Assembly (NCBI GenBank): GCA_030430565.1
Contig: JAUIKS010000002.1
Coordinates: 310,001 to 374,000 of the forward strand
Length of the DNA: 64,000 nt
Origin: Polyangia bacterium
Lineage (GTDB): Bacteria; Myxococcota_A; Polyangia; Nannocystales; Nannocystaceae
Direction: 5' to 3'
Position 1 is the stretch's first letter. Every line of letters starts with the position of its first letter. A program made the position numbers and the translations under genes. This document shows positions 14,270 to 61,845 of this stretch, piece by piece. Under the pieces are notes generated by a model that was given only the letters and a program-made list of their open reading frames with translations, ran no database searches and had not been told where the DNA came from.

Positions 14270-14346
14270 GGCCGGGGCATCATAGGACGACGCTTCCTTC
14301 TTCGATGGAGACGCGAACATTTCGAATGTCTCGAGCGCTGATAATT

Positions 14347-14495
14347 CCCCAACACCGGGCCGCTGCTTAACGCCAGGGCTCCCTCCACCTTCCGGGCGCC
14401 GAGCGCCTGCACAGATAAAGCGGACCAACGCCAACACGCTCGCCGTCCTCAGGCGGCCCCTCCTGGCTCGCGCGCGTCCCTTGAGCTTCGGTGAG
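14347..14495 (-). repeat. Dispersed palindromic element, copy 1
   Basis: The core, 14372-14467 (minus sense), runs from GCCAGGAGGGG through GGACGGCGAGCG, a spacer with GTCCGCTT, then GCTCGGCGCCCGGAAGG to CCCTGGC. Conserved flanks are CCGAAGCTCAAGGG upstream and GTTAAGCAGCGGCCCGGTG downstream. The same order occurs at 26951-27097 and 60813-60965. The two halves are imperfect inverted repeats. A 17-bp piece (GCCGAGCGCCTGCACAG, 14398-14414) recurs at 14585-14601. The 14321-14632 interval holds no gene. Confidence 0.8.
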
Positions 14496-14632
14496 ACCGG
14501 CCCGGCTTCGATCGAGTCGCGCGCTCCCCACGACGTGAGCGAAACAGCGACGTCCAAGGGTGTTCTAGAACTGCACGTTCTCCAGCCGAGCGCCTGCACA
14601 GCGCGCGCGGACCTACGCGAAGGAGCTGGAAG

Positions 14633-26880: not shown

Positions 26881-26963
26881 CTCGTTCGCGTCATCAGAGT
26901 TCAAGGGCCGCGAGGACGCTGTCCGTCCGTGTTGCCTCGCTCGCATCATCAGAGTTCAAAGGC
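26881..26963. repeat. 28-bp direct repeat pair
   Basis: CTCGTTCGCGTCATCAGAGT + TCAAGGGC at 26881-26908 recurs at 26936-26963 with three changes. The repeats are 55 bp apart and lead into the dispersed palindromic element. Only two copies are present, so it is not a CRISPR array. Confidence 0.6.
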
Positions 26964-27097
26964 GCTGCTGCGAGTCGAGCCAGGGAGGGGCCGCCCGAGG
27001 ACGGCGAGCGAGTCTGAGTTCGTCCGCTTGACCCGCCCAGGCGCTCGCCGCCCGGAAGGCGGAGGGTCCTGGCGTTAAGCAGCGGCCCGGTGCCCGC
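26951..27097 (+). repeat. Dispersed palindromic element, copy 2
   Basis: The core at 26979-27073 runs from GCCAGGGAGGGGCCG, GGACGGCGAGCG, GTCCGCTT, AGGCGCTCGCCGCCCGGAAGG to CCTGGC, then GTTAAGCAGCGGCCCGGTGCCCGC. It aligns along its whole length with 14372-14467 and 60841-60937. The region 26786-27146 contains no gene. Confidence 0.8.
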
Positions 27098-27146
27098 GGA
27101 CCGCGTTCGTTCGAAACCAGGCCCTGTATGCATCGAAAACCTGGGC

Positions 27147-59090: not shown

Positions 59091-60515
59091 ATGACCCGGC
59101 TTTCCACCGCCCTGTTCGCCCCGACCCTCGCCACCACCTTCGCCGCGGCATCCCTGGCCTGCACGATCACCGACGGCAACACCGCCAGCGACACCGACGC
59201 GCCGACGAGCGCGACCGAAGGCACCGACGGCATGAGCGGCACCTCGGCCGGCCCCGGCACGGACACCACCCCGATGGGTGACGAGGTGACCATCCCGATG
59301 ATCCGCCAGGGCATGGTCGCGCCCGACACCGTGGTCACCGTTAAAGACGCCATCGTGACCGCGCCGGTCCGCGTCTACGGCGGCGAGGATCAATACGCCC
59401 AGTACTACATCGGCGACCCGGCCGGCGGCGAGTGGTCCGGCATCTACCTGTTCACCTTCTCCGACCTCGGGCTGCAGCTCAACGTCGGCGACCAGGTGAC
59501 CGTGACCGCCACCTACGAGGAGTACAACGGCGTCTCGCAGCTCAGCGTCAACTCGCTCGAGAGCGTCAGCGTGACCGGGACCGCGACCCCCCCCGCCCCG
59601 GTCGTCGTGCCCGCCGCGACCTTGGCCGGTGACGCCACGGGCGAACCCTACGAGAGCGTGGTCGTCCGGGTCGAGAACGTCGAGGTCACCGACGACTCGC
59701 AGGGCTTCGGCAACTACGTCCTCAGCGACGGCCTCACGCTCAACAATCAGTACCTGTTCGCCGCCGGCGAGCAATTCCAGCCGGTCAACGGCGACACCTT
59801 CGGCGCGCTCATCGGCCCCTTGGCGCGCAACACCTACGACCCGCCCTTCTTCTACATCGCCCCGCGCACCTGGGACGACGTCATCGACTGGGACTCCGGC
59901 GGCAACCCGACCACGACCACCGACACCGACACCACGGGCCCGTCCGAGGACGCGACGGTCTACCAGGTGCAGATGGGCGACGTCCCCGAGGGCAACACCG
60001 TCACGATCAAGAACGTGGTCGTCTCGAGCCCCCTGACCTTCGCGGGCAACAACATGTACGTCCAGGAGCAGGACGGCGGCGCGTGGTCCGGCATCAACGT
60101 GTTCCTGCCCAACGGCGCGCCCGCGCTCGCGGTCGGCGATGTCGTCGACATCACCGGCACCTACGAGGAGTTCTTCGACAACTCGCAGATCGTCGTCCAG
60201 GACATGGCCGACATCGTGCCGACCGGCGGCACCGCCCCGGTCGTGCCCGAGGTCCTGACCCCCGCCGACTGCCTGCTCGAGGACTGGGAGGGCGTGCTCG
60301 CCACGGTCGAGAACGTCACGGTCACCGTCGAGGGCATGGAGATGTACTGGGAGTGGGAGGTCGACGGCCTCACCATGGACAAGCAGTTCATCGCCAACGA
60401 CGACTGGCCGAAGCCCACCGTCGGCACCACCTACAGCTCGCTCACCGGCCCGCTGCGCTTCGCCTTCGAAAAGCGTCGCATGTCGCCGCGCGACCTCAAC
60501 GACATCGTCGAGTAG
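59091..60515 (+). CDS. OB-fold repeat lipoprotein (YhcR/DUF5689-like)
   Basis: ATG 59091 with GGAGA upstream gives 474 residues. The signal PTLATTFAAASLAC ends in a lipobox. A Thr/Ser stalk is followed by several OB-type units recognisable by GMVAPDTVVTVKDAIVTAPV, GDQVTVTATYEEYNGVSQLSV and GDVVDITGTYEEFFDNSQIVV, ending in SPRDLNDIV. Such domains occur in extracellular nuclease-associated proteins. No catalytic domain is present. It is followed by a hairpin terminator. Confidence 0.82.
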   Translation: MTRLSTALFAPTLATTFAAASLACTITDGNTASDTDAPTSATEGTDGMSGTSAGPGTDTTPMGDEVTIPMIRQGMVAPDTVVTVKDAIVTAPVRVYGGEDQYAQYYIGDPAGGEWSGIYLFTFSDLGLQLNVGDQVTVTATYEEYNGVSQLSVNSLESVSVTGTATPPAPVVVPAATLAGDATGEPYESVVVRVENVEVTDDSQGFGNYVLSDGLTLNNQYLFAAGEQFQPVNGDTFGALIGPLARNTYDPPFFYIAPRTWDDVIDWDSGGNPTTTTDTDTTGPSEDATVYQVQMGDVPEGNTVTIKNVVVSSPLTFAGNNMYVQEQDGGAWSGINVFLPNGAPALAVGDVVDITGTYEEFFDNSQIVVQDMADIVPTGGTAPVVPEVLTPADCLLEDWEGVLATVENVTVTVEGMEMYWEWEVDGLTMDKQFIANDDWPKPTVGTTYSSLTGPLRFAFEKRRMSPRDLNDIVE

Positions 60516-60615: not shown

Positions 60616-60850
60616 CCTCGACGTGCAGATGACGAGGTCTCGCCGAAGCTCAAGGGTCGCGCGCGAGCCAGGAGGGGCCGATCAGGCCCTCGACGTGCAG
60701 ATGCCGAGGTCTCGCCGAAGCTCAAGGGTCGCGCGCGAGCCAGGAGGGGCCGATCAGGCTCTCTCGGCTCGAGTTCCGCTTCGGTCAGGCCTCGACGTGC
60801 AGATGCCGAGGTCTCGCCGAAGCTCAAGGGTCGCGCGCGAGCCAGGGAGG
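60616..60850 (+). repeat. Three tandem copies of the element's 5' flank
   Basis: A roughly 65-bp segment starting CCTCGACGTGCAGATG and running through GAGGTCTCGCCGAAGCTCAA to GAGCCAGG begins at 60616, 60688 and 60790. The first and third are also preceded by CCGCTTCGGTCAGG. The third copy continues into the complete palindromic element. Confidence 0.85.
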
Positions 60851-60965
60851 GGCCGGCTGAGGACGGCGAGCGCCGCGACGCCCGTCCGCTTCGCCCGTTC
60901 AGACGCTCGCCGCCCGGAAGCCGGAGGGTCCCCTGGCGTTAAGCAGCGACCCGATGCCCGCACGC
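60813..60965 (+). repeat. Dispersed palindromic element, copy 3
   Basis: The core at 60841-60937 starts GCCAGGGAGGGGCCGGC and ends GGAGGGTCCCCTGGC, with GGACGGCGAGCG and CGCTCGCCGCCC as the inner arms. The 3' flank GTTAAGCAGCGACCCGATG is conserved with the other two copies. There is no gene in 60516-61038. Confidence 0.82.
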
Positions 60966-61020
60966 TAAGGGTGCCCGAAGGGGCATATGGTCGACGCCCG
61001 CACGCTATGGGTGCCCGAAG
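60956..61020. repeat. 25-bp direct repeat with GAAG hairpin
   Basis: GCCCGCACGCTAAGGGTGCC + CGAAG (60956-60980) recurs at 60996-61020 with one change. The first copy folds as TGCCC-GAAG-GGGCA (60972-60985), like 38970-38983. It lies beyond the 3' end of the minus-strand lipoprotein gene. Confidence 0.65.
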
Positions 61021-61038: not shown

Positions 61039-61845
61039 CTAGCCCTCGTCGAAGCCGATCGGCAGGTAGCGCAGCGCGACCAGGAGCGCGAGCGAGAGCT
61101 CGCGCTCCTCGTGCTCGAGCCCCTCGTCGACCCACGCCCGCTCAGGTCGCGCGAGGATCATCGCCGCGACCGCCCGCTCCCCGCGTCGGATCTGCACCGC
61201 CGCCGTCGGGAGCGAGCGGCGCATGAACTTCCACATCGTGAACCACAGCAGGATCTCGACCCGCTCGGCGGCCTCCTGCCCCGGCGCCGCGCTGCTCTGC
61301 GCCCGCGAGAACGTGCCCTCGAAGTTCTGCCCGAGGTTGCCCTCGGCGGTGAACTCCCAGCGCCCCCCCGCGCCCGCGAGCTGACAGCGAATCGCCACGT
61401 CGTCGCGCGCCTCACCGGCGGTCGCGGCGAAGTCCGCGTCCTGCGACTGCCGACGCTGCCCGGTGCAGGTCGTCGTCCACGTGCGCGACTGCTCGGGCGC
61501 GGCGAACTCGAGCGCGAGCTGGTACTCGCGGATCGGTCGACCCGGGACCTGCGAGGAGAACATCGAGCCGTCGACCGCGAACGCGCGCTCCCGCACCGAG
61601 ACCCCGCGGACCTCGTAGGGCCCGAGCTTCATCCCGCCCCTGACCCGCGCGCGCTCGCGCTCCAGCTGCAGGCCGGCTCCCGGCGTCCGCAAGCCCGGGT
61701 CGATCATCTTCTCGGCGGCGCGCTGCTCGATCGCGCACCCGCTGCCGACTGCGCTGACGAGCAGCCCGAGCGCCAACACGATCCCGGGGGCGCGACAACT
61801 GCGCGCTCGGGCGTAGAACAACGAACTCGGGTCGCGGGATCGCAC
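61039..61845 (-). CDS. Lipoprotein of unknown function
   Basis: GTG 61845 gives 268 residues (a longer frame to 61956 is possible). GIVLALGLLVSAVGSGC is a clear lipobox. The mature part has alternating strands (MKLGPYEVRGVSVRERAFAVDG, REYQLALEFAAPEQSRTW) and an FTMWKFMRRSLP helix. No family was recognised. It diverges from the thermonuclease gene. Confidence 0.75.
   Translation of the reverse strand: MRSRDPSSLFYARARSCRAPGIVLALGLLVSAVGSGCAIEQRAAEKMIDPGLRTPGAGLQLERERARVRGGMKLGPYEVRGVSVRERAFAVDGSMFSSQVPGRPIREYQLALEFAAPEQSRTWTTTCTGQRRQSQDADFAATAGEARDDVAIRCQLAGAGGRWEFTAEGNLGQNFEGTFSRAQSSAAPGQEAAERVEILLWFTMWKFMRRSLPTAAVQIRRGERAVAAMILARPERAWVDEGLEHEERELSLALLVALRYLPIGFDEG

Follow-up and report, generated by a model that had tools for sequence, protein, structure and literature searches.

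The window, by which we mean the whole 64,000-nt stretch of DNA analysed here, carries three copies of a ~177-bp intergenic repeat. Tentatively, we read these as members of a likely old family built around a covarying four-helix hairpin; we predict that one of its strands folds as RNA and likely forms a boundary signal.

A dispersed intergenic repeat family

All three copies that the first-pass annotation had placed in the window were recovered with a model built from 34 repeat copies. The other 15 window matches listed score at most 19 bits and include two fragments that lie immediately before the 60818 copy, on its upstream side. The copies, two 5′ fragments upstream of copy 3 and the genes around it are given below. 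Genes were predicted throughout with a home-made codon-usage gene finder.

60810..60986, plus strand: copy 3, full unit, edges from the 64-copy profile (model core 60818-60961, 164.4 bits)
14323..14498, minus strand: copy 1, full unit (model core 14348-14490, 140.1 bits)
26942..27122, plus strand: copy 2, full unit (model core 26950-27097, 113.3 bits)
60639..60680, plus strand: upstream 5′ fragment of the repeat, 98% identity to query positions 1-43
60711..60752, plus strand: second upstream 5′ fragment, 98% identity to query positions 1-43
59091..60515, plus strand: predicted gene upstream of copy 3, in the same orientation (home-made gene finder)
61039..61779, minus strand: predicted opposing gene, its stop codon facing the 3′ end of copy 3 (home-made gene finder)

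The inverted half-sites and conserved flanks that had been described for these copies are real, except that the exact sequence CTCAAGGG is absent from the 26950 copy. The core of 95–97 nt described with them is only the inner part of the repeat: helix P1 (GGGYCGC/GCGRCCC) lies outside it and the unit measures ~177 bp. An ungapped profile of 64 copies gives this unit sharp edges, with conservation running from position −8 to ~169 and flanks at background level; it extends ~25 nt beyond the model end.

A model search of the 11,594,881-base (11.6 Mb) genome assembly (68 contigs, 87.67% complete, 5.31% contaminated) yielded at least 90 matches at E ≤ 1e-3, a lower bound because 150 of 35,725 candidates were scored, so the family is larger than the three copies first noted. 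A DNA search of the same genome gave at least 66 matches (40 of 435 candidates scored). Within 76 stretches examined in detail, 93 copies or fragments from this genome passed E ≤ 1e-3; a copy from a relative (L069) came up alongside them. The copies are thus neither confined to the window nor alignable by base composition alone, as the true pattern matched 43 times in the genome and the same pattern read backwards not once. The intergenic placement first noted also extends to the family, with none of the 93 midpoints inside a predicted gene and five copies overlapping a gene end by 6–33 nt. Degraded copies and fragments are common. Six contig ends (C5, C10, C11, C30, C47 and C56) fall within ~85 bp of a repeat copy, and two pairs of loci, L107/L134 (identity 0.975) and L087/L128 (0.898), probably each represent one locus that was broken up during assembly.

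The description of the family as new holds relative to Rfam 15 and the literature searched. No window match reached the Rfam 15 gathering threshold, three matches on locus L003 scored 14–17 bits, far under their gathering scores of 35–61, and the literature search returned no description of the repeat element.

Secondary structure and covariation

The alignments describe four stacked helices, P1 (model positions 11-19/126-135), P2 (24-30/114-120), P3 (36-41/102-107) and P4 (47-55/87-95). Their positions in copy 3, together with two of the internal loops, are as follows.

60828..60836, plus strand: 5′ strand of P1 (GGGTCGC GC), partners 60946-60952 and 60943-60944; covarying pair 14-132
60841..60847, plus strand: 5′ strand of P2 (GCCAGGG), partner 60931-60937; double changes at pairs 25-27/117-119
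60853..60858, plus strand: 5′ strand of P3, partner 60919-60924; pairs 39-104 and 41-102
60864..60872, plus strand: 5′ strand of P4 (CGGCGAGCG), partner 60904-60912; double changes at 47-95, 50-92 and 52-90
60859..60863, plus strand: internal loop GAGGA, opposite CCCGGA at 60913-60918; among the 27 internal-loop positions
60938..60942, plus strand: internal loop GTTAA, opposite GCGA at 60837-60840; conservation of 100% among the 64 top copies

Compensatory stem changes, which the first-pass annotation had proposed as a check, were found as strong covariation in the four helices. In a MAFFT alignment that was not fitted to the structure (A2), nine pairs were double-changed against 2.4 in shuffles, and 36 double-changed cells stood against 5.4, with none of 500 shuffles as high. 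Paired cells made up 97.7% in this alignment, 94.0% in shuffles and 29–53% in slid controls. Alignment A3, which comprises 94 matches and was fitted to the model, gave 16 double-changed pairs versus 6.1 in shuffles and 117 cells versus 29.0. Counted over 55 loci, nine double changes were of a single-locus type, 66 cells belonged to shared types and 37 cells were broken. The top three column pairs by mutual information are pairs of P1, P2 and P3, and several of the next-ranked ones represent linkage between P2 columns.

Each helix contributes its own kind of variation. P1 pair 14-132, scored in 63 copies, is UA in 25 and CG in 20, and is unpaired in 18 (AG 14, GA 2, GG 2). The double changes in P2 include CCAGG to CGTGG, plus others at the pairs listed above, and P3 pair 39-104 was seen as CG, GC, UA and AU, with pair 41-102 as UA and CG. 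Those in P4 each occur in single copies. Part of this stem compensation could have been produced by gene conversion or by template-switch repair of hairpins.

RNAalifold applied to A2 returned the same P2–P4 with a different P1 register and a small covariation term (−1.27 kcal/mol), and the minimum free energy structure of the copy 3 plus strand shows P1–P4. Copy 3 is more stable on the minus strand (−94.9 kcal/mol, z −1.49) than on the plus strand (−90 kcal/mol, z −0.62), neither z-score being notable. For the relative L069, the minimum free energy structure is a different fold that lacks the one in the model (z +1.14). Three further pairings were considered and rejected. A terminal fifth hairpin (143-157 with 165-194) gave −10.73 kcal/mol for its own pairing and −10.63 for swapped arms; a pairing that would join the two ends of the unit gave z-scores of +1.12 and +1.35; and a GGAC/GTCC pseudoknot between loops was dropped because copies with GGAT or GCCC leave the other side unchanged.

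Substitutions differ between the strands. Among the top 64 copies, G-U pairs outnumber A-C mispairs by 43 to 7, and over all 94 rows by 87 to 32. Pair 38-105 alone supplies 23 of the 43 G-U pairs, and without it the counts are 20 versus 6 (p = 0.009, 55 loci). Where a site is shared by 80% or more of these 64 top copies, C>T versus G>A changes number 16:7 in stems and 15:36 at unpaired sites (Fisher p = 0.002). As the C>T excess is found in stems and not at unpaired sites, mutation bias is a poor explanation. Together with the G-U preference, the pattern suggests that it is the plus strand of 60818-60961 that folds, either as RNA or as single-stranded DNA. The lower free energy of the copy 3 minus strand and the different fold of L069 speak against this.

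The internal loops hardly vary. At their 27 positions, 10 of 1473 cells were changed (0.7%), compared with 227 of 3402 in stems, 383 of 1142 (34%) in the variable apical loop and 179 of 330 in the outside flank. The whole unit has a mean pairwise identity of 0.779 and a median identity of 0.859 to the nearest non-local copy, and no dispersed pair reaches 0.90 save loci likely split by contig ends. The age argument rests on the whole unit, including its variable 3′ part, because some cores are close: copies on C2 and C29 share 95–96% identity with copy 3 across 143–153 bp. Loops this constant next to saturated flanks are not readily explained if each copy decayed freely after insertion, though gene conversion between copies may also be a source of the loop constancy. 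The first-pass annotation had offered a mobile element, a structured RNA and a protein-binding site as readings; the covariation, the excess of G-U over A-C and the near-invariant internal loops make the structured RNA the best supported of the three.

Genomic placement

Repeats lie preferentially between gene ends. Both neighbouring genes could be assigned at 71 sites, which divide into 38 convergent, 31 tandem and 2 divergent, compared with 31 convergent, 117 tandem and 45 divergent among element-free gaps (Fisher p = 4e-9 for convergent enrichment and p = 4e-5 for divergent gaps). The 3′ side of the repeat is the nearer one at 30 of the 38 convergent sites, where the median distance between the model end and the stop codon of the opposing gene is 49.5 nt, against 116.5 nt on the 5′ side. 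Tandem contexts comprise 17 sense and 14 antisense copies, so any function is not tied to the upstream gene.

Most sites are single-copy, and none of the 71 holds copies on both strands. Where same-strand tandem copies differ by more than 20 bits, the degraded copy lies upstream and the intact one at the 3′ side in nine of nine loci; L074, with a partial copy downstream, is a counter-case. The remaining same-strand tandem loci differ by at most 16 bits, the upstream copy scoring lower at L090 and L134 and higher at L106, L084 and L085. The 5′ motif also occurs 40 times beyond the matches themselves; 30 of these occurrences lie on the same strand within 600 nt upstream, and 1 lies on the same strand within 600 nt downstream. 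Some tandem copies share one variable loop, which makes local duplication likely.

Flanking genes have no common theme: among the genes scanned at loci from the best 80 matches, no Pfam family was present more than three times in the 63 upstream genes or more than twice in the 64 downstream ones. With 38 of 71 sites convergent and no functionally related downstream genes, the placement is not that of a riboswitch or leader. Nor do most copies resemble an intrinsic terminator with a U-tract. A terminator scan at copy 3 found none; of 62 copies, 7 have a T-rich stretch within 40 nt after P1 on the plus strand, and 15 have one on the minus strand.

Other sequence features were seen on the 3′ side of some copies. 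At L105 the copy is followed by a tandem array of period 17 with the small hairpin unit GGTGCCCGAAAGGGCAT. The motif TGCCCGAAAGG was matched 14 times 3′ of a copy, seven of these being the unit end and five fitting the spacing of the L105 array, and four times on the 5′ side. A weak extra motif resembling GCCTACGCGCTT follows the unit at positions 171–184 in some copies (Gibbs score 307–344, versus 250–275 in shuffled sequences).

Distribution in other genomes

Searches of 39 relatives, 29 genomes of the family and 317 of the class (overlapping sets that include the own genome; the class search used stricter filters, with 10 candidates scored per listed genome) found matches only in the own genome and in G002, a genome from another genus listed with 6% contamination. 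The copy in G002 is the relative L069 mentioned above. It is single and diverged (69.1 bits, E 4.7e-11), keeps GCGCGCGAG, CCTGAGGACGG, CCGCCCGGAAGG and CGTTAAGCAGCG as well as the GTTAA loop, differs in its stems, and has a tRNA-Val gene downstream on the opposite strand. No repeat matches were found in G001, a genome of the same genus. Comparison with G001 for empty sites recovered some synteny, with two long matches at 65–66% DNA identity and one of 78 bp at 91%; the two genomes are too diverged for this purpose, and one orthologous gene was recovered.

Across 377 genomes of the phylum, the exact loop pattern occurred 43 times in the own genome and once in one other, which we take as chance. 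Pattern matches in two viral contigs and in G313 were likewise taken as chance, as their loci score at most 17.1 bits with the model. A wider contig search gave four exact 18-mer matches (two in Collimonas, one in Tenebrionibacter and one in an uncultured Erysipelotrichaceae), about the number expected by chance, this expectation being an estimate.

Signs of mobility

The first-pass annotation had also suggested a REP/MITE-like mobile element. A mobile origin is indeed plausible, because the repeat is amplified in one genome and has no matches in a genome of the same genus. The marks of such an element, namely a Y1 transposase, terminal inverted repeats and a clear target duplication, were not found. 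The search for a cognate transposase returned no Y1, TnpB or IntI-type enzyme over the cut-off in the 88%-complete assembly. Profiles for Y1 (RAYT) transposase (PF01797) and TnpB (PF07282) had no matches in the genome and matched 5 and 6 of 14 controls, respectively, whereas PF14239, used to look for IscB, matched neither the genome nor the controls. The best IntI match reached 59.6 bits against a cut-off of 435, which none of the 14 controls passed either. Tyrosine recombinase-like matches below this cut-off occur at 32 places in G000; each may have nothing to do with the repeat or may be the enzyme sought.

The unit begins with CGTCTCAT and ends with AAGGTCAT, and these ends form no terminal inverted repeat as expected of a MITE (end-to-end pairing z +1.12). 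No clear target duplication emerged from 2400 combinations of edge offset and k-mer length in 62 copies; the best excesses, uncorrected, were 7 versus 2.4 (k = 3) and 4 versus 0.34 (k = 4), and a direct-repeat test gave z-scores of −0.48 and −1.55. Old copies could have lost their target duplications. Insertion into a pre-existing hairpin was set aside; flank pairing had a z-score of −1.39 when short flanks were used and of −2.81 with long ones, the latter a weak positive.

The genome contains three reverse transcriptase genes, one of them within a group II intron. The other two are presumably retron-like, by resemblance.

L149:5007-6943 (G000:C4): group II intron with reverse transcriptase (RF02005, 140 bits; PF00078)
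L150:5103-6692 and L151:5047-6348: the remaining two reverse transcriptase genes

Rfam searches around the reverse transcriptases returned group II intron families only, and no match above 16 bits was found within 12–12.5 kb around those on C11 and C25, where a retron msd would be expected. A retron, group II, IS200/605, TnpB or integron origin found no support in these searches.

A possible boundary signal and its alternatives

We tentatively propose that the plus strand of the repeat is transcribed and folds as RNA, where it would halt or shorten transcripts that run towards the next gene. In most copies the hairpin is not followed by the T-rich stretch that intrinsic termination requires, so this control would have to work through a protein, for instance Rho or an RNase. 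At convergent sites, a plus-strand boundary RNA would protect the opposing gene from antisense transcription; at tandem sense sites it would end the upstream transcript, and at tandem antisense sites it would end antisense RNA. By our reckoning, such a plus-strand boundary would misfit only 2 of the 71 sites. Points against the proposal are the unremarkable folding energies, the different folds given by RNAalifold for P1 and by energy minimisation for L069, the P1 pair that is unpaired in 18 of 63 copies, the mixed orientation in tandem contexts and the lack of a theme among flanking genes. The copies themselves may have been spread in trans by an enzyme, as a non-autonomous interspersed repeat, after which each locus would have retained one intact copy since it is useful there. 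A bolder version, which we think unlikely, is a new class of structured RNA with ~70 loci, acting as a one-way transcription boundary with one working copy beside the end of each next gene, a dedicated protein on the invariant loops and a SINE-like spread through an RNA intermediate.

The main rival is a purely parasitic non-autonomous repeat of the ERIC/BOX type, possible in our judgement though doubtful, whose hairpin would serve mobilisation in trans and whose position at 3′ ends would reflect tolerance of insertions. The family has what such repeats have, namely many intergenic copies (at least 90 matches, 0 of 93 gene-centred) with a conserved, covarying hairpin. A structured parasite tolerated after genes would explain the placement equally well, given that no copy is centred in a predicted gene and that divergent gaps account for only 2 of 71 sites. 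The available excerpts of PMC3049150 describe the same convergent bias for pneumococcal repeats and IS elements. Amplification in one genome with no matches in the same-genus genome, and the many degraded copies and fragments, also fit a parasite. This explanation is weakened mainly by divergence and loop invariance: the unit shows no recent burst (nearest non-local median 0.859), yet its internal loops hardly vary. Retention of the 3′ copy in all nine unequal tandem pairs, with L074 as the counter-case, speaks against it as well, as does the failure to find a terminal inverted repeat, a clear target duplication or a candidate enzyme.

It is quite unlikely that the plus strand folds instead as single-stranded DNA that is bound by a protein or recombined, like attC sites or IS200/IS605 ends. 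The strand asymmetry fits this too, because G-T pairs are tolerated in DNA hairpins, and the repeat ends at its 3′ side in GTTAAGC, which is similar to GTTRRRY, the core of integron attC sites. However, the attC partner box, RYYYAAC, is absent at the pairing position, there is no Y1 transposase match or clear target duplication, and the best IntI match stays far under a cut-off that the controls likewise did not pass.

We regard as very unlikely a double-stranded DNA site for a protein between convergent genes, like the BIMEs, which bind gyrase or IHF. Convergent enrichment (p = 4e-9) and the lack of orientation preference in tandem contexts (17 versus 14) agree with such a site, but it predicts neither the asymmetry of G-U over A-C nor conserved internal loops between compensating stems. 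Highly improbable are retroelement remnants, whether retron msDNA or a product of a group II intron, that had inserted at sites across the chromosome: three reverse transcriptase genes, one in a group II intron, and RNA-like evolution would suit them, but no match above 17 bits lies beside these genes, the nearest real copies are ~9 kb from the group II intron, and fragments often keep the 5′ end, unlike the 5′ truncation left by target-primed reverse transcription.

Interspersed repeats of bacteria are often treated as decaying parasites, and here dozens of diverged copies keep their internal loops. With compensated drift in the stems and many natural replicates, one genome allows a direct test of when a selfish repeat turns into an RNA signal of use to its host. 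If the boundary reading is true, the repeat would represent a structured way, free of U-tracts, to separate convergent genes in GC-rich genomes.

Comparison with known systems

The ERIC elements or intergenic repeat units of enterobacteria are intergenic imperfect palindromes of ~127 bp. To our knowledge they have no transposase and no sequence relation to the repeat described here, which differs in its ~177-bp unit and in covariation with conserved loops. REP/REPIN sequences with their RAYT form many extragenic palindromic copies, sometimes clustered; the present repeat has no Y1 match in the assembly, and none of its 71 sites holds both strands. Like integron attC sites it is an imperfect palindrome that ends in GTTAAGC, whereas its GTTAA faces GCGA in the alignment with no paired inverse core box, and its copies are dispersed and not arranged in a cassette array.

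BOX, RUP and SPRITE of Streptococcus pneumoniae are, in the available excerpts of PMC3049150, short interspersed repeats with predicted RNA structure and enrichment between convergent genes. Compared with these elements as described there, the repeat has no terminal inverted repeats and most copies lack a SPRITE-like U-rich tract; it is GC-rich, probably forms a long interrupted hairpin with near-invariant internal loops, and comes from another phylum. According to the same excerpts, SPRITE elements lie near 3′ ends and may be co-opted as terminators, which makes them the nearest precedent for co-option of an interspersed repeat near 3′ ends (PMC3049150).
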